A stretch of DNA of 33,140 nt from Bacteroidota bacterium (GTDB lineage: Bacteria; Bacteroidota; Bacteroidia; Chitinophagales; BACL12): positions 1 to 33,140 of the forward strand of contig JAKQVC010000242.1 in NCBI GenBank assembly GCA_029571985.1, read 5' to 3'. Below are positions 17,612-32,380 of this stretch, piece after piece. The translations under genes were made by a program, and so were the position numbers. Within the stretch, counting starts at the first letter, position 1, and each line of letters starts with the position of its first letter. A model generated the notes under the pieces. The model ran no database searches. It saw nothing but the letters and a program-made list of their open reading frames with translations, and had not been told where the DNA came from.

Positions 17612-18358
17612 TTAGCGGTTTAACCAGGCTTTGAAGGCTGCAGAACGCTCTGCAGAAACAATGGTATCGCCGGATGGAGTAGGGTGGAGCGTAATTTTTA
17701 CCCGTGATTTTGAGTAGTGTACCATATCTCGAATAGCGGAAAAACACACAATATATTGCCTGTTGATTCGGAAAAATATATCGGGGTCTAATTGTGCTTC
17801 CAACTTATCCAGGGATTGATCAATGAGGTATTGCCGACCTTCCGTATCACACAGAAAATTCAGTTTATTATCGGCAAAAAAATAGGCAATTGTTTCAACC
17901 GGAACGGATTTTAGTTTTTGACCTGTACTCACCAGATATCGTTCCTGGTATTTTGGTTTTGATGTCAACATCCGCAAGGCCTGTTGTAAATCCGGATATG
18001 GACTGGTGCGCTGTCTGAATTTATGAATAGCAGCTGCAAGTGCTTCAGATTCTATCGGCTTCAGTAAATAATCAATACTGTTTACCTGAAAGGCTTTAAT
18101 AGCATACTGATCATAAGCCGTTGTGAAAATAACCGGTGTTAAAACCTGTATGCGTTCAAATATGCTGAAACTGATACCATCAGCCAAATGGATATCGCAA
18201 AAAATGACATCGGCATTTTCTTTCGGCAGTTGCAGAACGGCTTGCTCTACACTGTCGATGATGGCAACTACCTGCATATCTGCGTCAATCGATTCAACCT
18301 GACTGCGCAGCCATTCGGCAGCTAAATGTTCATCCTCTATAATTACAACACGTGTCAT
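17612..18358 (-). CDS. LytTR-family response regulator
   Basis: 248 residues. The receiver has E8/D9 (IIEDEH), phospho-acceptor D55 (VIFCDIHLADG), T79/T80 (VIFTTAYDQYA) and K100 (YLLKP). The C-terminal LytTR DNA-binding domain spans ~140-246 (SVPVETIAYFFADNKLNFL ... FFRINRQYIVCFSAIRDM). It binds DNA as a phosphorylated dimer; targets are commonly nearby, often outer-membrane genes. It starts 2 nt after the LytS-like kinase stop. Reading order on this strand is TonB receptor, kinase, regulator, glycoside-hydrolase lipoprotein. Confidence 0.92.
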   Translation of the reverse strand: MTRVVIIEDEHLAAEWLRSQVESIDADMQVVAIIDSVEQAVLQLPKENADVIFCDIHLADGISFSIFERIQVLTPVIFTTAYDQYAIKAFQVNSIDYLLKPIESEALAAAIHKFRQRTSPYPDLQQALRMLTSKPKYQERYLVSTGQKLKSVPVETIAYFFADNKLNFLCDTEGRQYLIDQSLDKLEAQLDPDIFFRINRQYIVCFSAIRDMVHYSKSRVKITLHPTPSGDTIVSAERSAAFKAWLNR

Positions 18359-18360
18359 TT

Positions 18361-19413
18361 TTACATTTCCTGTTCAATGATAGGAACATTGGCTACATAA
18401 TTTTGATCGCGCACATAAAATTGCGGTGCCGTTGCTGATAGCAAAGCATATCGGGCCAAGAGGTTTTGGTGACCAATGCCTGATTCTGGCGGCGTATCCT
18501 CCCGTAACTGTAAATTATTACTCACTACAATGGCATTACCTTCCTGATAGATTCGAATATGCAGTGGTTTTGATTTACTGATGACATTATGTTTAATGGC
18601 ATTTTCAACCAGCAGCTGCAGCGTTAAGGGTGGCAGGTATCCGGTGCAATTATCCAACTCGATGGAAGCCTGCAAACTATCGCCAAAACGAATATGATTC
18701 AGGTATAAAAAACTTTTGATGAAGGTAATTTCATCGCCACAGGGCACAACCATTGCATCTTTTTTATCGAGCACATATCGATAAACACGTGCCAGTTCCT
18801 GAATAAAGGCTTTGGCCTGGACTGGTGACTGGTCGACAAGCGATTGCAGAGCATTAAAACTATTAAATAAAAAATGCGGACTAATTTGTGTTTTAAGGCC
18901 TTCCAGTTGGGCGCGCATCATTTCCTTTTCTAATTGTTCGCGCGCAGCAATGCTGAGTTTGAGTTTGCTGATGTACTGATTGATTTCCATAACCAAATCC
19001 ACAATGATCACCAATACGGTTGCAAGAACCTGGTTAGAAAATATACGAGATGTTCTGCCTTCAACCGGTAAATGCAATATCCAACCATCAAATGCTATCC
19101 AAAATACATAGATGATAATATTGGAAGCAATTAATGAAACGAGTACACTTAAGATTATTCTTCTCGATTCGTTAGACTGTCCAAAGTAGGTATGCCCTTT
19201 TATATGTATATAAATATTCACAAAGAAAAGCGCAAAGGTGATGAGTACAGAAAAAATCCATGTGCTGATTAATCCCTGCCAGAACGGACCAATATCGCAA
19301 TTCGGAATATCCAGTACAAAGTAGCTGATGATTTGAAATACCGGAGGCACCAGCGAAACGATGCCGGTGCCTGTCAGTATATGTTTGAATGGTATGGTTT
19401 TGTTGTTCGTCAA
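18361..19413 (-). CDS. LytS-type (His_kinase/PF06580) sensor kinase
   Basis: 350 residues. About four membrane segments are in 10-145 with no large periplasmic sensor domain. A coiled segment (RAQLEGLKTQ) leads to the histidine site H180 in QISPHFLFNSFNAL, typical of LytS/YehU kinases. The N-box is LLVENAIKHNV (E270, N271) and the G-box SGIGHQNLLARY, indicating an intact ATP-binding fold. It overlaps the TonB receptor stop by 4 bp (ATGA), so its translation is coupled. The absence of a big input domain suggests sensing in the membrane or through a partner, possibly the TonB receptor. Confidence 0.92.
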   Translation of the reverse strand: MTNNKTIPFKHILTGTGIVSLVPPVFQIISYFVLDIPNCDIGPFWQGLISTWIFSVLITFALFFVNIYIHIKGHTYFGQSNESRRIILSVLVSLIASNIIIYVFWIAFDGWILHLPVEGRTSRIFSNQVLATVLVIIVDLVMEINQYISKLKLSIAAREQLEKEMMRAQLEGLKTQISPHFLFNSFNALQSLVDQSPVQAKAFIQELARVYRYVLDKKDAMVVPCGDEITFIKSFLYLNHIRFGDSLQASIELDNCTGYLPPLTLQLLVENAIKHNVISKSKPLHIRIYQEGNAIVVSNNLQLREDTPPESGIGHQNLLARYALLSATAPQFYVRDQNYVANVPIIEQEM

Positions 19414-21791
19414 AATGTAATGCGATATTGAGGAACAGGAAATACACCTAATTGGTAAATGGTATTTACCTGCTGATTAACCGGATTGTAGCGCTGGTAA
19501 AGTGGGTTTTGACGGTTGGTAATATTTTGCACATCAAAAGCCCATTCCTGTGAAGTGTGTTTTCCATCCATTTTAAAAGCGAGACGCATGTCCCAGCGAA
19601 AATAGTCTTTAAATTGCTCTTCAAAGGCACGATCCCAGTCGTACTCTGTTTCACCTGCCAGAATTGAAGCTTCTAAATCGATTGGGGTATAGCGTTGTCC
19701 GCCGGCCAAAGTTAATTTGGTATCGAAAACGATTGACTTTTTCGTCTTTTGTCCCGTGCGATCAGCAAATAATGTAAACTCTTTTCCGCCTACAAAATTT
19801 ACTACGTAATTACCGGAAAAAGCTGTTTGTCGTTCAATATCATCGCTGGCAATATAAGCAGACTGATACAATGAACCGGTAAATAAGAAGTATAGGCCTT
19901 TATCAAGGAATTTTTCGAGTGTTACTTCAGCTCCGTAATTTTTACCTGTTCCTTGATTGACAAGAAAGTCAGGTGAGCCAAATGTTAAACTACCTGTATT
20001 TAAAATAGAATAAGAACTGCTGTCGCGATCAATCAATACATCAAACAGCTGCTGATAATATACTTCTGACCTGAATCGCATGGTTGGAGAAAGCTGTCGG
20101 TCGTAACCCAACACAATATGATGCGCCTTAATAAAATCAAGGGAGTCGTTAGGCGTAATATATACACCCGGCATCACTTCCTCTGTTTTGAAATAAGTAG
20201 AAATAGGCGCCATCATGCTGTGCAAACCATATCCGAATGAAACGCTGTTTACATCATTAATAGCATACTTTAATCCTGCACGAGGTTCAATCGCATTGCT
20301 GCCGTTGAGTGTGAGGTATTGATCATGCAGACCAACCGTAAAGGCCAGTTGTTCGCTTATACGATATTGATATTGAACATAAGCCTGCAGAAGTGTCGTA
20401 TTGCCGTCGAAGGCTGTTAGCGTAACATAGCGATCAAGTTGCGCACGGTACATGCTATCCACCAGATCAATCACAAACATATCTCCACGAACGCCTGCCT
20501 GAATATTATGTCGCGCATTAAGTTTCAATTTATACATAAAATTGGCAGATAATCTGTATTGTGTGAAGTCTTGTCGGTAGAAATCAACCGGTTCGAAAGT
20601 TTCACTTGAAATGGAATCAACAATATCACTATTTACGGTAGCGGAAGCGGACAAGGTAAGTCGGGTATATGATTTATCGTTGATCAGATACTGGTGAGTA
20701 AATCCTGCCAGTCCTACTTTACTTCTGTCGTAAATATCCAGGTCGTTATTATAAATATTATCTACACTATCTTCAGATGTACTCGAAATGAGGTCAATAG
20801 AACTCACCCCGGCCATGCCAAAGAACGCGAAAGTGCCTGCTTTGTCGGTTGGAACATTCAGTCTCCAGGTTATATCCTGATAGTAGGGGATAGCTGTTCC
20901 GGTTCCGAAATTAATACCGATGGCACTCATAATGCCCAGGGTGGAGTATCGGTAATTAACCAGATAAGAAGCTTTTGATGATTTACTCAGAGGTCCTTCT
21001 GCGCCTAATTCAAATCCATTTAAACCAACCTGTCCAATAAATTCGTGTTTCTTGTAATTTCCATTGCGCATGCGCAGATCGAAAACCCCACTTAAGCCAT
21101 TTCCATATTCAGCCGGAAAAGCACCGGTCATAAAATCGCTGTTCGTAAGCACGTTATTATTTAACATGGAAACAGGACCGCCCGTGTTGCCTAAATCGCC
21201 AAAGTGATTTGGGTTTGGAATATCAATTCCTTCCAATCTCCACAATAATCCAACCGGAGAATTTCCTCTGATAATAATATCATTTACCGCATCATTGGCG
21301 CCGCGCACACCGGCAAAATTTTGCGCCATCCTGCTTACATCATTTCGTGCGCCCGCATACCGCATACTTTCTTCAATCGTAAATTGTCGCGTGCTTACTG
21401 TCGACATTTCATTATTGGTTTCCATTTTATTTTCGCGGCTATGCACCACAACAGCATCCATGCTCACAATTTGCTCGGCGAGTTCCAGGTTTACCACTAA
21501 TTCTTTTCCGGAGGTAAGTTCCAGATTGTTTACCACAAATGGCTCATAACCGATATAGCTGGCTTGCAGACTAATACGGCCAATGGGCACATCGTTAATT
21601 ACATAATAGCCGTTCTCATCAGTTGAGGCTGCTAAAAGCGGACTGGAGCCAACTACCAGCAGGTTTACACCTGGCAGGGTGGCTTTTGACTGGTTATCTA
21701 CTACCTGACCACGAATGGTTTGGGTGAGTTGTTGAGCCCGGGCAGATACTGCCACCAGACTCAGGGTTAATAGGAGAATAAATCGATGCAT
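19410..21791 (-). CDS. TonB-dependent receptor with CarboxypepD_reg domain
   Basis: 793 residues from ATG 21791. The frame extends to a GTG at 21821, but MHRFILLLTLSLVAVSARAQ is a clear signal peptide. A CarboxypepD_reg domain (about 25-110: IRGQVVDNQSKATLPGVNLLV ... IGRISLQASYIGYEP) precedes the plug (RNDVSRMAQNFAGVRGANDA, IIIRGNSPVGLLWRLEGIDI) and a short beta-barrel ending VPQYRITF. It imports an unidentified ligand across the outer membrane using TonB energy. No SusD partner is present, so it is not a standard Sus locus. An inverted repeat lies upstream in the leader (21805-21837). Confidence 0.9.
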   Translation of the reverse strand: MHRFILLLTLSLVAVSARAQQLTQTIRGQVVDNQSKATLPGVNLLVVGSSPLLAASTDENGYYVINDVPIGRISLQASYIGYEPFVVNNLELTSGKELVVNLELAEQIVSMDAVVVHSRENKMETNNEMSTVSTRQFTIEESMRYAGARNDVSRMAQNFAGVRGANDAVNDIIIRGNSPVGLLWRLEGIDIPNPNHFGDLGNTGGPVSMLNNNVLTNSDFMTGAFPAEYGNGLSGVFDLRMRNGNYKKHEFIGQVGLNGFELGAEGPLSKSSKASYLVNYRYSTLGIMSAIGINFGTGTAIPYYQDITWRLNVPTDKAGTFAFFGMAGVSSIDLISSTSEDSVDNIYNNDLDIYDRSKVGLAGFTHQYLINDKSYTRLTLSASATVNSDIVDSISSETFEPVDFYRQDFTQYRLSANFMYKLKLNARHNIQAGVRGDMFVIDLVDSMYRAQLDRYVTLTAFDGNTTLLQAYVQYQYRISEQLAFTVGLHDQYLTLNGSNAIEPRAGLKYAINDVNSVSFGYGLHSMMAPISTYFKTEEVMPGVYITPNDSLDFIKAHHIVLGYDRQLSPTMRFRSEVYYQQLFDVLIDRDSSSYSILNTGSLTFGSPDFLVNQGTGKNYGAEVTLEKFLDKGLYFLFTGSLYQSAYIASDDIERQTAFSGNYVVNFVGGKEFTLFADRTGQKTKKSIVFDTKLTLAGGQRYTPIDLEASILAGETEYDWDRAFEEQFKDYFRWDMRLAFKMDGKHTSQEWAFDVQNITNRQNPLYQRYNPVNQQVNTIYQLGVFPVPQYRITF

Positions 21792-21804
21792 AGCTTGTAA
21801 TTTC

Positions 21805-21837
21805 TGCAGCAAAACAAACACACCTGGGGCTGCTGCA
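21805..21837. repeat. Inverted repeat in the TonB-operon leader
   Basis: TGCAGCA (21805-21811) and TGCTGCA (21831-21837) are exact 7-bp arms with a 19-nt spacer, lying 14-46 nt before ATG 21791. It could be an operator for the LytTR regulator or a leader hairpin. Confidence 0.35.
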
Positions 21838-25360: not shown

Positions 25361-27295
25361 TTACTCACGAACCACAACAAATTGCCTGTGCAAATTGTCC
25401 ACCGTAAATGTATAAACACCCGGGGCAAGATCAGGTAATGCAATATGTAATTTTGATTGTGTGCATACGCCTTCAGCTACACGTTCACCCGTAATTGAAG
25501 TGATTGACCATGATTTATTTTGAAAATCAGTTTGCAAGTAAACATATATATCGCTGCTTGCCGGGTTCGGAAATAATTGCAATGCAGGTTGTAAGAGATG
25601 ATTGATATCTGCAACTACATCTGCTGAATCAACAATTCCTGTGCCCATATTATAAAAGCTTCCCGAAGGTGTAATTTCCAATGTAACCGGGCGTACCATA
25701 ACATACGGATATGCTTCACCATCAATAACGGCATAAATATGTTGTGGAAACGTAACAGGTGTTTCTGTTACGCGTGTGTAAATGCCAAACCTTTCCTGTG
25801 CAAGAAAAATATGATAACCTAAAACACCTGTTTCATCTCCTGCAACAATATCGACATCCATCTGATTGTTAGTGCCATCCGAAAGCGTGGCCATTACCTC
25901 TTCAACGGGTGACACAGGATACATCCTAAGGGTAGGATCACCAAGTAAACTGATATGCGTCCATTTTGGAAATAAATTACTGATGTAGGTTGAATTATTA
26001 TTTTGCGTCAATCTGGCCGCCTCACCAATTGTTGCACCCATACCCATTTCATGTGTTTGCCAATGCGGGCGACCAGCCCATGCGTTTGTTAAGGTTGTGC
26101 CACCAGCCAGAGATGCACGCAAAAAATTATCGGGTGAATCCCAGTCACCGAAATAGCTGCCAAATAAAAAGCTGAATACGGTTTTAGTGGTATCAGCAGC
26201 AAAATCGGTAGAAGTGCCAACGCCGCTTGCGCCTTGAAACCATCCGCCACCGCAACCATAGCTCCACACATAGCTGGAATCACGCATCGTTGGAAAAAAA
26301 TCAAGTTCTGCAATGTGATCATTTCCAATCAGCGGTCCGAAATTTCTCCAACCGGATGCTGCGAATGCTTCACCTGCAAAGGCGCCAAAATTATCATCGA
26401 TAAGTGCACGTTGCGTAAAACGGGTTATGCCGTTTCGATACTGATGATTGTTATCCAGATATCTTTTCAACAAGACCGCTTCATCAACACCGAAAACAGG
26501 CAGATTAAACATATCGATACGACCAACTTGTAAATCCACTCTCGATTTAAACACATTCTGATCGTATTTTCCATCACCGGGCACATTCCAATTTTCTGTT
26601 CGTCCTGCAATTGTATTATTTATTGTTTCATCGGTATAATCGGCATCGATATCACCATAAATGCCATCTGCTGGCCATGCGCCCTGGTGTTCAGGGTGAC
26701 CATCCGGATACATATTTCCACTGTATAAAACAGGTACTCTTCCGAATAAAACAATGGCGTGAATAGTTGTATCTAAATTGGCTTCTGTATTAATCATTTC
26801 ATGCACAGCTATCGGTGTCATATCGCGTGCCACTGACAATTGACGAACACCCCACCCATCGCCTGAAATATCTTCCTTAAAGCGATAGAGTTCATTTTCG
26901 ATTGTTGCTATGATGGTTGTATCTACTACCAATAAACAGGTGCCTCTATAATCTGTTATACCTATTTCAATTCCGCTTAATACATATCCCTCGCCGGTTA
27001 TGCCGCTGGAAATATCTCTTGCCACTTTATAATTATAATAAATGCCTGGTTCAACATCCGTATCGGTATAGGTTACGGCAGTGCCATCATAAGTGGCAAC
27101 GGGTGTTCCCCAAGAAACTTCTTCGCGGCCTTTTTTATATATACGATATTCAGTAGCATTTGCATGTGCAGGCCAATGTAGCGTGATGGCGGATGGACTT
27201 ACTTCAGCTGAAATAAGAACAGCATAATCGGAAGTGAGCTGTGCCTGAACAAACAGTGAGCAAATGAGGCAGAGAGAAAGGAGGATTAATCGCAT
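25361..27295 (-). CDS. T9SS-secreted protein with Fn3 and degenerate C25-like region
   Basis: 644 residues from ATG 27295. The frame runs to 27376 over the upstream gene, but MRLILLSLCLICSLFVQAQ is a standard signal. A fibronectin-III-like segment (SAITLHWPAHANATEYRIYKK) comes first. A large region with peptidase C25 (gingipain-type) character follows, ending SLLGDPTLRMYP. Where C25 enzymes have a Gly-His-Gly and a catalytic Cys, this reads SYGCGGGWF and VFSFLFGSYFGDWDS, so the His is not evident and activity is doubtful. The last ~75 residues are a type-A T9SS sorting domain (LFPNPASSDIYV ... LAPGVYTFTV). It follows the ATP-grasp gene by 1 nt (TAACATG), so translation is coupled. Confidence 0.75.
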   Translation of the reverse strand: MRLILLSLCLICSLFVQAQLTSDYAVLISAEVSPSAITLHWPAHANATEYRIYKKGREEVSWGTPVATYDGTAVTYTDTDVEPGIYYNYKVARDISSGITGEGYVLSGIEIGITDYRGTCLLVVDTTIIATIENELYRFKEDISGDGWGVRQLSVARDMTPIAVHEMINTEANLDTTIHAIVLFGRVPVLYSGNMYPDGHPEHQGAWPADGIYGDIDADYTDETINNTIAGRTENWNVPGDGKYDQNVFKSRVDLQVGRIDMFNLPVFGVDEAVLLKRYLDNNHQYRNGITRFTQRALIDDNFGAFAGEAFAASGWRNFGPLIGNDHIAELDFFPTMRDSSYVWSYGCGGGWFQGASGVGTSTDFAADTTKTVFSFLFGSYFGDWDSPDNFLRASLAGGTTLTNAWAGRPHWQTHEMGMGATIGEAARLTQNNNSTYISNLFPKWTHISLLGDPTLRMYPVSPVEEVMATLSDGTNNQMDVDIVAGDETGVLGYHIFLAQERFGIYTRVTETPVTFPQHIYAVIDGEAYPYVMVRPVTLEITPSGSFYNMGTGIVDSADVVADINHLLQPALQLFPNPASSDIYVYLQTDFQNKSWSITSITGERVAEGVCTQSKLHIALPDLAPGVYTFTVDNLHRQFVVVRE

Positions 27296-27296
27296 G

Positions 27297-28190
27297 TTAG
27301 AAATAATTTTGGGAAATAAATTGAGCAAGTTTAGAGGCAGCATCCGGGTGTTTTCTAAACCACAATTCCGGCTCAATTAATTCCAATTCCATTAACAAGG
27401 GAGAGCCATGTATATCGCGTGTAAAATCAACACGAGCATAAGCAGGCAGAGTAGGGCATGAGGCAATGGCCAGCTCTGCAAAAGTAATTTCTTCTGCTGT
27501 GGGTGTATATGGATGCACCGTTCCTCCAAAATCATCCTGAACCCGAAAGTCGCCACTTTTTGCGCGTTTTAAAACGGCATGCGTGAATTGTCCACCCATC
27601 AGCATACAGGAAACTTCACCGAAAGAAAGTATTGCCTCCTGAAAGGGTTGAAACAACATCGCTTCCTGTGCAATTAATTCGCTGAATATCGGTTGAATCT
27701 GTTTAATGGTATCAGCCTCCACCACATAGGTATGTCGCGCTGCACCGGAGACAGCTGGTTTAATGATACCTCTGTTTACGTTTCCTAAAATATTTTCAAG
27801 GGTAAGTGAGCTGCCTTTCTCAATAAATTGTGTTTCCACAATTGGTACACCGGCTTGTTGTAAATCTGCCAGATAATGTTTGTCCATATTCCACCGAACA
27901 GTTTCGATGGCATTGATACAAATCGTTTTATCAGCGATGTGATTCAGCCATTGTGTAAATGCAGCAAAGCGATTAAAATAATCCCACATCGTTCTGAAAA
28001 TGATACATGTAGGTGAGGACCAATCAAATGCAGGGTCACTCCATGAAATGCGCTCAGCAGATAATCCGTGTTGTGCAAATGCATCTATCAGCAAGGCATC
28101 ATCACGCAGGATATTATCAATATAGTCGTTGGTATGCTGTGGATTTACATAGCGATCCTCAGTAACCAAAACGATATCGCGATGTGACAT
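27297..28190 (-). CDS. ATP-grasp ligase of unknown substrate
   Basis: 297 residues. The fold is ATP-grasp: an N-terminal Rossmann-like domain with RTMWDYFNRFAAFTQWL (66-82), the ATP-binding Lys in GIIKPAVSGAARHTYVV (K144), a loop KSGDFRVQDDFGG (211-223), and the metal-binding end ARVDFTRDIHG (D255) with LMELELIEPELWF (E268, E270). This set is that of the RimK/glutathione-synthetase-like, DcsG-like family, which makes an amide from a carboxylate and an amine via acyl phosphate. The substrates are unknown. It is flanked at 1 nt on each side by a small membrane protein and a T9SS protein. It has no signal peptide, so it is cytosolic. Confidence 0.8.
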   Translation of the reverse strand: MSHRDIVLVTEDRYVNPQHTNDYIDNILRDDALLIDAFAQHGLSAERISWSDPAFDWSSPTCIIFRTMWDYFNRFAAFTQWLNHIADKTICINAIETVRWNMDKHYLADLQQAGVPIVETQFIEKGSSLTLENILGNVNRGIIKPAVSGAARHTYVVEADTIKQIQPIFSELIAQEAMLFQPFQEAILSFGEVSCMLMGGQFTHAVLKRAKSGDFRVQDDFGGTVHPYTPTAEEITFAELAIASCPTLPAYARVDFTRDIHGSPLLMELELIEPELWFRKHPDAASKLAQFISQNYF

Positions 28191-28191
28191 G

Positions 28192-28539
28192 TTATTTGTT
28201 ATTTCGGGTAAAATAGGCAGCTGTTGAAGTCAACCCACCGATAATACCCATTGCAATTGCGACGATAAAGAATAAAGTGTACCCGTTTTTAAAATTGAAC
28301 AGGTTTGCCATTTTACCGGACATAATTGAATCGTTTGCTAAGTCTTTAAAGATATAAGCAACCATCCAGGTAATAAATACAATCAGCATGCCTGCAAAAA
28401 ATGCGCGCCAGGCAGATTGATAGTTGACGATAAAAGAAATGAGGAAGGTAAGCGGGGCAAATATCCACCACCATGGCAGGAACGTTTGTCCCGCCATACA
28501 CAGCGCAAAACCGGTGATGATACTGCCTAAATACTTCAT
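28192..28539 (-). CDS. Small hypothetical membrane protein
   Basis: 115 residues from ATG 28539. The frame extends upstream into the Ntn-hydrolase gene, but TGATATG at 28537-28543 places this ATG 1 nt after the previous stop. Four predicted membrane segments follow: LGSIITGFALCMAGQTF, WWWIFAPLTFLISFIV, WRAFFAGMLIVFITWMVAYIF and YTLFFIVAIAMGIIGGLTS. No named family. In context it might serve the same compound as the neighbours, for instance as an inner-membrane accessory. That is inference from coupling only. Confidence 0.7.
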   Translation of the reverse strand: MKYLGSIITGFALCMAGQTFLPWWWIFAPLTFLISFIVNYQSAWRAFFAGMLIVFITWMVAYIFKDLANDSIMSGKMANLFNFKNGYTLFFIVAIAMGIIGGLTSTAAYFTRNNK

Positions 28540-28540
28540 A

Positions 28541-31015
28541 TCAATTAAATCGAATCGAGAATTTTGCGTCTTTAGCTGCTTCTTCTTCGTTGGAATACAT
28601 ATGTAGTATGTAATATTTTCCTGTAGCCCAGCTATCAATAAAGTTGTCGTAATATTTACTACCCGGATTACCACTTTGTCCGCCCGGATAAACACCCACA
28701 GCCTGCACAGGTTCTGTTAATTCAACGATCATGCGCCAACTTGGTCCGTTGCGTTCGCTGGTCGCATTTACGATATTGCGATAACCTCCTGTATGTACAC
28801 CTGTTTTGCTAAATGCCGGAATCTGGCTCAGGTGCATTATCTGCGTGTTTTTATGCTTGTACCAAGTGAGCAACGATTTATCTTCCTTCCGCAGTGAATC
28901 AACAATTTGCACCATGGCCAAGAAACTTAATTCAATTATATCATCCAGTGTTTCTTTTTGATCGGTGGTTGCCTTTACATCATATAACGCATAATCAACA
29001 GGCCAAACCTGCATTGCGTTTACAGTATTATAAATATTCGGTTGAACATAGGCAATAACAGAGTCGCGCATTTCGTCCCATAACATTTGATATAAAGTAT
29101 CCCACCAAACCTGGAAATAGGTTGGTGCTTCAATATCAGGGTCATTCATAAATTTCCACTCCTGAAGTGCCGTATACACTTCGCATGCACTGTTGCCAGT
29201 ACCTTTTTTACAAGGTTCTGATAAATGTCCGAACATAACGGGCAATGCTTCATTTGCATGCAGATTAAAATTGTTCTGCTGCAATTGCTGCATGGTTTCT
29301 ATAGTAGCATCCTGTGTTTTTTCCAGCGATCTGTTGATGATGCGGTTTCGGTAAAATTCAAAATCAAATCCTGTATAATAATACGGATAGGTTTCGTCGG
29401 TGCCATGTTGATTCGCTGAAGAAACAAATCCGCGCTCCGGATTTAAAATATAGGGGTTGTGATCGTAAGGAATAAATCCTGTATAATAATCATCCGGATT
29501 ACTGCCATCTAAAATAAATCTGCCCTGATCCTGTTTTTTCAATGGCAAACGTCCTTGCTGGGTAATGGCAATATCACCATCCTGCGCAGCGAAAACAAAA
29601 TTTTGTGCAGGACAATTAAAATAACTGATGGCGTGTCGATAATCATTAAAATCGGTTGCCCTGTTCAGTAAATAAAACGTTTTAATAGGTTCTCCGGGTT
29701 CAAGTGCTGCCCAGCGCATGGCCAGATGCACGCGTTGTTTTTTAAATGGCGTAGCATCCGGTTCGCGATTAATCATTTCATCGTTGTAAACAATCGGACC
29801 GAATTGCGTATATAAAACCGTATCGATTACAGGATCGCCATCTCGCACCACAATGGTTTCTACACGTTTTTCAGTAGGTAACCATTTTTTACCAAACTTA
29901 TAATTCGTTTCCGTATCATCCTGAAATTCAACCGTATACCAGTCGCGCACATCAATTCCCGCGTTTGTTACACCCCAGGCTATATGTTCATTATAGCCAA
30001 TTACGATAGCAGGTGCGCCGGGTAAACTTACACCATAGCAATTGCTGTTTGGTGTTTGCAATTGAATCTCAAACCATAAAGAAGGCAGATTTAATTGCAG
30101 GTGCGGATCGTTTGCCAGAATGGGTTTTCCGGATTTACTTTTCGAACTGTCAATTGCCCAGTTATTGCTACCTACCTGATTACGTCCATGTTCTGTTTCA
30201 AAAATTTCCAGGACTTTTCTGAAATATCCACCTCTGATAGCCTGTTGTAAGGTGTCATTTGAAACAGCTGCAAAGTCATATGTTTTTTCCTTTGGAATGA
30301 TCGGGTCAATTCCGGCAGGCCTGTCAGGAAATAATAATTCGAAATCTTCTTTTGATAATAATTTGCGCAAATTGGAATACTCCATGTCATCATCGTAACC
30401 GGTGAGCGTGCTGCTCATGTATTGTAATAACAAAGCTGAGTTTAAAACCGTCCATGGTTCCGGTTTGTAATTCAGTAATTTAAACTCAATCGGCAATTCT
30501 TCATAACCATCGTTTAATATTTCATCGATGTATGCATTAACGCCATCCGCATAAGAAGTCAGGCATCCAAATAGAGCGCTATCGGCTTTCCATAATTCTA
30601 CATTGCGTTCAGCAGCGTAAACCATACCCATTCGGCGCTGTTCAAGGTCGTAAGCCACAAAACGATCTCCAAAAATTTCACTGAGTCGGCCACCGGCTGC
30701 ACGGCTTTGGATATCCATCTGCCAGAGGCGGTATTTGGCAGTTACATACCCTTGCATGAAATACAGCGATTGATCATCTTCTGCAAAAATGTGTGGCACC
30801 AGACGTTCGTCGAAGTACACTGAACCACCTACATTGGGCTTAATAACTGGCACCTCCACATCTGAAAAAGCTTGTTCAGTTTCAGCGTTGGCCATGAAGC
30901 CACGCACTGGATCCATGAGTTTGCCTAAAGGTGGCAAACCAGCGATGCCTGTATCCAAAATGAATATCAGGGCAACCGGGATCAGAAATAACAGAAAAAT
31001 CTTAAAATACCGCAT
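28541..31015 (-). CDS. Penicillin-acylase family (S45) Ntn hydrolase
   Basis: 824 residues with an N-terminal membrane anchor or signal (about 5-20). S45 architecture: an alpha part (VYFDERLVPHIFAEDDQSLYFMQGYVTAKYRLWQMD), a linker, and the beta subunit expected to start at Ser283 in VGSNNWAID, the autoprocessing and catalytic residue. LANDPHLQLNLPSLWFEIQL and AWGVTNAGIDVRDWY are conserved S45 stretches, and the end has GPSWRMIVEL and GVYPGGQSGNPGS. Such enzymes cleave amides (penicillins, acyl-homoserine lactones, other N-acyl compounds) in the periplasm. The natural substrate is not predictable. It lies 33 nt after chrA and 1 nt before the next gene. Confidence 0.9.
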   Translation of the reverse strand: MRYFKIFLLFLIPVALIFILDTGIAGLPPLGKLMDPVRGFMANAETEQAFSDVEVPVIKPNVGGSVYFDERLVPHIFAEDDQSLYFMQGYVTAKYRLWQMDIQSRAAGGRLSEIFGDRFVAYDLEQRRMGMVYAAERNVELWKADSALFGCLTSYADGVNAYIDEILNDGYEELPIEFKLLNYKPEPWTVLNSALLLQYMSSTLTGYDDDMEYSNLRKLLSKEDFELLFPDRPAGIDPIIPKEKTYDFAAVSNDTLQQAIRGGYFRKVLEIFETEHGRNQVGSNNWAIDSSKSKSGKPILANDPHLQLNLPSLWFEIQLQTPNSNCYGVSLPGAPAIVIGYNEHIAWGVTNAGIDVRDWYTVEFQDDTETNYKFGKKWLPTEKRVETIVVRDGDPVIDTVLYTQFGPIVYNDEMINREPDATPFKKQRVHLAMRWAALEPGEPIKTFYLLNRATDFNDYRHAISYFNCPAQNFVFAAQDGDIAITQQGRLPLKKQDQGRFILDGSNPDDYYTGFIPYDHNPYILNPERGFVSSANQHGTDETYPYYYTGFDFEFYRNRIINRSLEKTQDATIETMQQLQQNNFNLHANEALPVMFGHLSEPCKKGTGNSACEVYTALQEWKFMNDPDIEAPTYFQVWWDTLYQMLWDEMRDSVIAYVQPNIYNTVNAMQVWPVDYALYDVKATTDQKETLDDIIELSFLAMVQIVDSLRKEDKSLLTWYKHKNTQIMHLSQIPAFSKTGVHTGGYRNIVNATSERNGPSWRMIVELTEPVQAVGVYPGGQSGNPGSKYYDNFIDSWATGKYYILHMYSNEEEAAKDAKFSIRFN

Positions 31016-31048: not shown

Positions 31049-32380
31049 TCAGCCAACTATCCACATCATCAACCCCATGGCGGCACTAATGCCTATCCAA
31101 AGAGGCATACTCACCTTGTACTTATGTAAGGCAATAATAGAAACGCCTATCCATATCAAAGCTGTTATATTCAGGGTTTGAAAATCTATTTCGGCAAACT
31201 GTTGGTGGTGTTTGCCAAATAAAACAGCCTCTGCAAAGTAAACAGTGAGGTTAAGTATCACCCCTGTAATCGCGGCGGTTACAAAAGTAAGGGCTTGTTT
31301 CACATGCGGATTATCCTGTGTGCGCTCAATAAGTGGTCCTCCTGCAAAAATGAATAGAAAGCAGGGCAGAAAGGTATAATAGGTGGTGGTAAATAGCCCC
31401 AAAGTGCCCAAGAGCAGGGAGTTTCCGCCAGTGGTATAACCGCCCATAAAGCCAACAAAAGCCAACACCATAATTAAGGGCCCGGGTGTGGTTTCGCCTA
31501 ATGCCAAACCGTCGATCATGTGCATGCTGTTCAGCCATTCATAGTGATACACTGCTTCCTGGGCCACATAAGGCAATACCGCATAGGCCCCACCGAAAGT
31601 GACAAAGGCAGCTTGTGTGAAAAAGGTAATCAGGTCATGCCAGAACGAGGCATACGCACCGCTAATGGCAAACAGATAAGGAATAAGCCATAGCGCAGAG
31701 AAAATGCCTATTTGCCGCAGAAGCTTTGACACCTGAAAACGGGTATGTGGAAGTGGGGAGGTTGTAGTTAAAAAATAGCCCTCCTCGTCTGTTCTGGTGT
31801 CTTTGGCTGCATGATTACCTGTGCTTTTACGCTTTTTGTTCAGGTATATGCTGATGAAGGCAATTGCGAAAGATGCGGCAAGTATCCAAATAAAGGAGAT
31901 TTTGAAGAAAAAAATGGCAATAAAACTGCCGATTGCCAGCAGGTAGTGCATCCAATCGGTTAGCGATCGTTTGCCAATTTTAATCATGGCGAGTAAAACG
32001 ATGGCTACGACAGCCGGTTTTAACCCGGTAAACAAGCTTTGCACCCAGGGGATATCGCCAACGGTAACATATAAAAGGCTGAGTATCAACAGAATACATG
32101 CAGATGGCAGCACAAACAGGATACCTGCTGCCAATCCACCGCGTGTGCCATGTAGCAGCCAGCCGGTATAGGTAGCTAGTTGTTGTGCTTCCGGCCCGGG
32201 CAGCAGCATACAATAATTGAGTGCGTGGAGAAATTTACGGTCGCTGATCCATCTCTTTTTATCGACGAGATAGCTATGCATGATGGCAATTTGTCCAGCC
32301 GGTCCGCCGAAACTTATCCATCCAAGTTTAAACCAGAATGCCAAAGCCTCTCTAAATGTAGGTTTAGCCGGGGCAGTCAT
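31049..32380 (-). CDS. chrA: Chromate transporter ChrA (two-domain CHR family)
   Basis: 443 residues, a full-length two-half CHR protein with about ten membrane segments. The first half has FGGPAGQIAIMH (24-35) and LLPGPEAQQLATYTGW (59-74); the second has TFGGAYAVLPYVAQEAVYHYEWL and ALGETTPGPLIMVLAFVGF. ChrA proteins export chromate, and the family also includes anion carriers of unknown substrate. No ChrB or reductase neighbour is present. A lipoprotein gene lies 14 nt upstream and the Ntn hydrolase follows after 33 nt, so they may share a transcript. The functional link between them is unclear. Confidence 0.88.
   Translation of the reverse strand: MTAPAKPTFREALAFWFKLGWISFGGPAGQIAIMHSYLVDKKRWISDRKFLHALNYCMLLPGPEAQQLATYTGWLLHGTRGGLAAGILFVLPSACILLILSLLYVTVGDIPWVQSLFTGLKPAVVAIVLLAMIKIGKRSLTDWMHYLLAIGSFIAIFFFKISFIWILAASFAIAFISIYLNKKRKSTGNHAAKDTRTDEEGYFLTTTSPLPHTRFQVSKLLRQIGIFSALWLIPYLFAISGAYASFWHDLITFFTQAAFVTFGGAYAVLPYVAQEAVYHYEWLNSMHMIDGLALGETTPGPLIMVLAFVGFMGGYTTGGNSLLLGTLGLFTTTYYTFLPCFLFIFAGGPLIERTQDNPHVKQALTFVTAAITGVILNLTVYFAEAVLFGKHHQQFAEIDFQTLNITALIWIGVSIIALHKYKVSMPLWIGISAAMGLMMWIVG

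Follow-up and report, generated by a model that had tools for sequence, protein, structure and literature searches.

A small membrane protein as putative dedicated partner of an S45 acylase clade in Bacteroidota

Acylases of family S45 are industrially important enzymes, whose natural roles are poorly understood; for PvdQ, His beta23 and Asn beta269 have been described as catalytic or oxyanion residues (PMC5474475). In this work, we describe a locus, contained in a 33,140-nucleotide stretch of Bacteroidota DNA, hereafter called the window, where an S45 acylase gene is immediately followed by the gene for a four-helix membrane protein. To our knowledge, no described S45 enzyme has an integral-membrane subunit, and a search of the open-access literature found no report of an S45 membrane subunit in Bacteroidota.

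The acylase gene opens a run of four genes, all located on the minus strand. It encodes an S45 (penicillin-acylase family) Ntn amidohydrolase of 824 aa (28541..31015), and is followed by the gene for the 115-aa membrane protein (28192..28539), regarded as a putative dedicated S45 partner on the basis of predicted structure, adjacency and fusion, by that for a 297-aa cytosolic, DcsG-related ATP-grasp enzyme (27297..28190), and by that for a 644-aa T9SS-tailed protein, containing FN3-like domains and a divergent C25/gingipain-like core (25361..27295). The three junctions, TGA T ATG at 28537..28543, TAA C ATG at 28188..28194 and TAA C ATG at 27293..27299, all feature an offset of +1. Genes, order, coordinates and 1-nt junctions, as given in the original prediction, were confirmed by inspection of sequence and ORFs; the protein classes proposed there (S45, ATP-grasp, T9SS tail, C25-like) were also correct, Pfam and NCBIfam returning Penicil_amidase, RimK-like ATP-grasp, Por_Secre_tail and a weak Peptidase_C25. 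On the same strand, a gene for a chromate transporter ChrA family protein (31049..32380; PF02417, 263 bits) lies 33 nt upstream of the acylase gene, and at the opposite side, 6 nt past the C25-like gene, is the end of a convergent pirin gene. A separate tight run, at 17612-21821 of the window, is composed of a LytTR-type response regulator, a histidine-kinase-like and a TonB-dependent-receptor-like gene, named by eye from sequence, and is kept in G001, the sole congener sampled.

The acylase matches PF01804 over residues 65-810 with 637 bits, well above the gathering cut-off of 21.3, and carries an N-terminal hydrophobic anchor. Alignments to PDB sequences place Ser283 at residue 1 of the beta chain; Ser283, His305 (beta23, as in PvdQ-type enzymes) and Asn535 are kept without exception across 33 homologues, and the enzyme, having an intact Ser/His/Asn site, is thus predicted to be active. 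The nearest solved sequence, by profile, is the Cupriavidus D-succinylase (344 bits), followed by penicillin G and glutaryl-7-ACA acylases and by PvdQ; the cut-off of the PvdQ equivalog NF051460 is not reached (66 vs 950 bits).

The association between acylase and membrane protein is deep, and extends across much of Bacteroidota. Among 80 further acylase loci fetched from the GTDB set, 79 of which assessable for the downstream neighbour, the membrane-protein gene directly follows the acylase clade in 75; one of the five loci lacking adjacency (L213) stops at a contig edge. The set includes named species of Echinicola, Algoriphagus, Marivirga, Aquimarina, Winogradskyella, Polaribacter, Chitinophaga and others. 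In an order-level sample, a membrane family of 110-150 aa, often missed by single-sequence search, was detected downstream of the acylase in nearly every genome. In a phylum sample of 395 genomes, a profile of this family found matches in 110, and 77 out of 96 strong matches lie downstream of an acylase, on the same strand and within 2 kb: for 75 of them the distance from the match edge is at most about 215 nt, for the other two 1.0 and 1.6 kb. All genomes of this sample containing an acylase match with E<=1.2e-135 also contain the membrane protein. In the remaining 19 cases, of which 18 belong to family f44 and one to f29, the membrane-protein gene is located apart from the acylase gene; 17 of these 19 genomes still feature a strong acylase match, and for family f44 in-trans use is possible. 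At five loci of this family (L237, L239, L240, L241 and L243) the membrane-protein gene was seen away from any acylase, the latter being encoded elsewhere. Where the two genes are adjacent in other species, their offsets, as measured in GTDB loci, are dominated by -4 and -1.

No other recurring neighbour of the pair was found within the 80 GTDB loci beyond small clades, the remaining neighbours differing from clade to clade. The ChrA gene, found upstream of the S45 gene also in G001 and in a member of the same family, G004, was considered as a conserved third gene and discarded, being restricted to the family and not kept in the wider set. Four members of family f49 (L137-L140, corresponding to genomes G308, G426, G161 and G169) feature a natural fusion, acylase and membrane family sharing a single ORF of 933-942 aa.

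The membrane protein matches no Pfam or NCBIfam family. Its AF2 model (pLDDT 91.7, pTM 0.82) comprises helices at residues 2-20, 24-37, 43-68 and 86-113, and a short one, 72-80, between helices 3 and 4, which reads as amphipathic in the sequence. Over 98 sequences, a net positive charge is carried by the N-terminus, by loop 2 and by the C-terminus, basic residues are missing from loop 1, and in loop 3 the charges balance out. The positive segments point to an N-in/C-in topology, which would therefore place on the periplasmic side the PWW turn as well as loop 3 and the short helix contained in it. Within the same set, conservation is highest at P22, W24-W25 and W58, at a Leu in position 73, which is Met in the window, and at glycines of helix 4. 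The four fused forms match the membrane profile only from position 12-20 on, that is without helix 1, and this fits the proposed topology, because a periplasmic acylase C-terminus can take the place of helix 1.

Structure search found no significant PDB relative of the membrane protein, so that the fold offers no mechanism. The top look-alike is the transmembrane bundle of the apolipoprotein N-acyltransferase Lnt (VIA Z 8.0, rmsd 4.1, 104 residues aligned), with a Foldseek E of 3.6, in the range of helical-bundle background. The modelled protein resembles Lnt residues 8-120 but has no catalytic domain, and the resemblance is a lead only; Lnt, FtsX and LolE are look-alikes at background level, from which we claim neither a relative nor the lack of one.

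Since their genes stay together across Bacteroidota, and are sometimes fused, acylase and membrane protein probably work as one membrane-bound enzyme. Pairing alone is no proof of a complex, and the 19 genomes of families f44 and f29 where the two genes are separated speak against one. From the computed gene pairing, co-occurrence, natural fusion, catalytic residues and topology pattern we infer, with moderate confidence, a two-component amidase, anchored in the inner membrane and facing the periplasm, formed by the S45 enzyme and a dedicated small membrane subunit in physical complex. The acylase would be held in the inner membrane by its N-terminus, with the catalytic domain exposed to the periplasm, and the four-helix protein would serve it as a dedicated integral-membrane subunit. 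Lying beside the acylase at the periplasmic side, the conserved PWW turn and helix 72-80 might provide the enzyme with a docking site at the membrane, and might give amphiphilic N-acyl substrates access to the Ser283/His305/Asn535 site. The N-terminal anchor and the membrane subunit suggest that the substrate is probably an amphiphilic N-acyl compound.

A more far-reaching version of this proposal, which we regard as tentative, is that the membrane protein represents a family of subunits, so far undescribed and dedicated to S45 enzymes, making the enzyme a membrane-embedded deacylase of N-acyl lipids, e.g. amino-acid or sulfono-lipids, whose delivery to the active site would be ensured by the PWW turn and the amphipathic helix. 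Amino-acid and sulfono-lipids are typical of Bacteroidota.

The main alternative is that the acylase requires the membrane protein as a chaperone or assembly factor, for its export, its insertion into the membrane or its autoprocessing, without keeping it as a stable subunit. Pairing and co-occurrence data apply equally well to such a factor, which could also act in trans where the two genes are separated. However, in the four fusions the membrane protein is fixed on the acylase C-terminus, an arrangement better suited to a subunit than to a transient factor, and we consider this alternative unlikely.

Less probable still is that, in the host genus, the four genes make up one pathway, where an N-acyl or peptide-like compound is made by the ATP-grasp enzyme in the cytosol and processed by the acylase in the periplasm, the C25-like protein acting as effector. 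This is the original prediction restricted to one genus; it had paired an amide ligase with an amide hydrolase within a four-gene unit and regarded retention of gene order elsewhere as support. The congener G001 does retain all four genes in the same order, with identities of 71, 88, 56 and 56% (a range given as 55-88% at the protein level), and the tight gaps suggest a single transcript. However, synteny between G001 and the window is not limited to these genes but extends from about 13 to 33 kb, which makes the retained order alone unspecific, and neither co-occurrence nor adjacency was found outside the genus. In G004, ChrA, S45 and membrane-protein genes are linked, an ATP-grasp homologue (40% identity) is located elsewhere and no C25-like gene is present. 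The G004 homologue (L105:2582-3442) is flanked by the orthologues of window genes 1041-1490 and 1500-1910, some 25 kb away from the position of ATP-grasp in the window, as if the gene relocates inside the syntenic block.

The wider samples agree with this picture. Of the 395 phylum genomes, 89 contain a member of the ATP-grasp family and 32 a member of the C25-like family, and the two are found together only in the genome the window belongs to, so that the gene-context check gives the four-gene pathway no support. Neither family is present in any of the 80 GTDB acylase neighbourhoods, and no recurring neighbour of ATP-grasp or C25-like genes was found at 18 relative loci. The pairing of ligase and hydrolase is thus a genus-level juxtaposition; the pairing within the unit that is conserved outside it links the S45 enzyme to the membrane protein. 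The ATP-grasp gene, whose family is scattered in its distribution, and the C25-like gene are additions made downstream in the host genus, and are probably co-transcribed with the pair; no link between them and the chemistry of the acylase was found, and the four-gene version should not be cited in favour of a novel biosynthetic route.

The identical junctions had been read as a sign of obligate termination-reinitiation and fixed stoichiometry. Junction statistics were collected over about 220 kb of the host genome, leaving out the four-gene finding itself, and defining as tight any offset between -12 and +12. By this definition 34 out of 78 codirectional gene pairs are tight, the commonest offsets being -4 (8 cases), -1 (5) and +6 (5); +1 occurs in three of the 34, two of which share the TGATATG string. 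For a tight four-gene run, the probability of one common offset at all three junctions is P ~0.02, and that of +1 at all three P ~0.0007: three matching +1 gaps are unusual in one preselected run, and unremarkable across the many operons of a genome. In G001 (locus L097) the corresponding junctions are TGA T ATG (+1), TAA AAG ATG (+3) and an ATGA overlap (-4). Wide differences in close relatives had been indicated as a result against the unit, and two of the three junctions have indeed changed in the closest one, only that between S45 and membrane-protein genes being unchanged; obligate coupling and a fixed stoichiometry are thus left unsupported. As +1 junctions are found elsewhere in the genome, -4 and -1 prevail between acylase and membrane-protein genes of other species, and two out of three change within the genus, the identical junctions were rejected as a functional signature.

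The last explanation, that acylase and membrane-protein genes are neighbours through ancestry only and share no function, is very improbable: adjacent genes can persist by descent, but here the surrounding genes turn over while the pair persists, the two are fused in family f49, and their presence is matched across the phylum.

The two additional genes may be described in their own right. The ATP-grasp enzyme matches the RimK-like ATP-grasp domain PF08443 just above threshold (21.7 bits vs a cut-off of 21), and features the invariant residues K144, E192, R253, D255, E268 and E270. Profile search matched PDB 6jil with 148 bits, and the DcsG equivalog NF058666 with 166 bits, below its cut-off of 360. 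In two genomes (L102:8492-9400 and L103:3415-4323) the ATP-grasp homologue lies directly against, or overlaps, the 3' end of a cysteinyl-tRNA synthetase-like gene, named by eye from sequence.

The C25-like protein has an N-terminal hydrophobic stretch, recognized by eye, and two FN3-like regions; it matches Por_Secre_tail PF18962 (28.5 bits vs 27) and falls just under the cut-off for TIGR04183 (19.9 vs 23). Judging from these sequence features, it is a T9SS cargo with a type A sorting domain. The best fold match of its core, from a model of modest quality (pLDDT 66.6), is to RgpB structures (E 6.6e-10), and the cut-off for Peptidase_C25 PF01364 is not reached (16.6 vs 23 bits). In the true C25 domains of this genome group, G-H and Cys are invariant. 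Among eight C25-like sequences, Cys348 is conserved in seven, and His200 and His203 in all; the profile alignment does not place the dyad. When C25 profiles were compared, the local alignment spanned the first half only, and the global one was obtained without dyad placement. The motifs PDGHxxHxxAWPxD and FGSYFGDxD are invariant in the family, as represented by the window member and loci L016-L024.

The new part of this locus is the membrane partner, not the junctions. That the partner is conserved, and sometimes fused, in Flavobacteria-, Cytophaga- and Chitinophaga-type bacteria suggests, for this large acylase clade, a site of action at the inner membrane, on something needing membrane access. 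The pairing narrows the hunt for the natural acylase substrate, offers a simple system of two genes for genetic and biochemical work, and gives a function-by-association label to a membrane-protein family so far unnamed.

Compared with known systems, the ATP-grasp enzyme has in DcsG, the D-cycloserine synthetase, its best sequence and profile match, and shares with it the R-x-D and E-x-E-L-x-E-P motifs; it differs in a family-specific DFRVQDDFGGTV motif, replaced in DcsG, and in the absence of a cycloserine gene cluster nearby. The C25-like protein resembles family C25 (gingipain R, PorU) in its best fold match to RgpB, its T9SS tail and a weak profile relation to true C25 domains. It departs from them in scoring below the PF01364 cut-off, in its distinct PDGHxxHxxAWPxD motif and in lacking GHG, invariant in most of the true C25 domains compared, and its family is possibly an uncharacterised offshoot of C25. 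The acylase itself conforms to S45 enzymes such as D-succinylase, PvdQ, penicillin G and glutaryl-7-ACA acylases in its full-length PF01804 domain, Ser beta1, His beta23 and conserved Asn; unlike them, it combines an N-terminal hydrophobic anchor with an integral-membrane partner of its own, encoded by an adjacent gene or fused to the enzyme.
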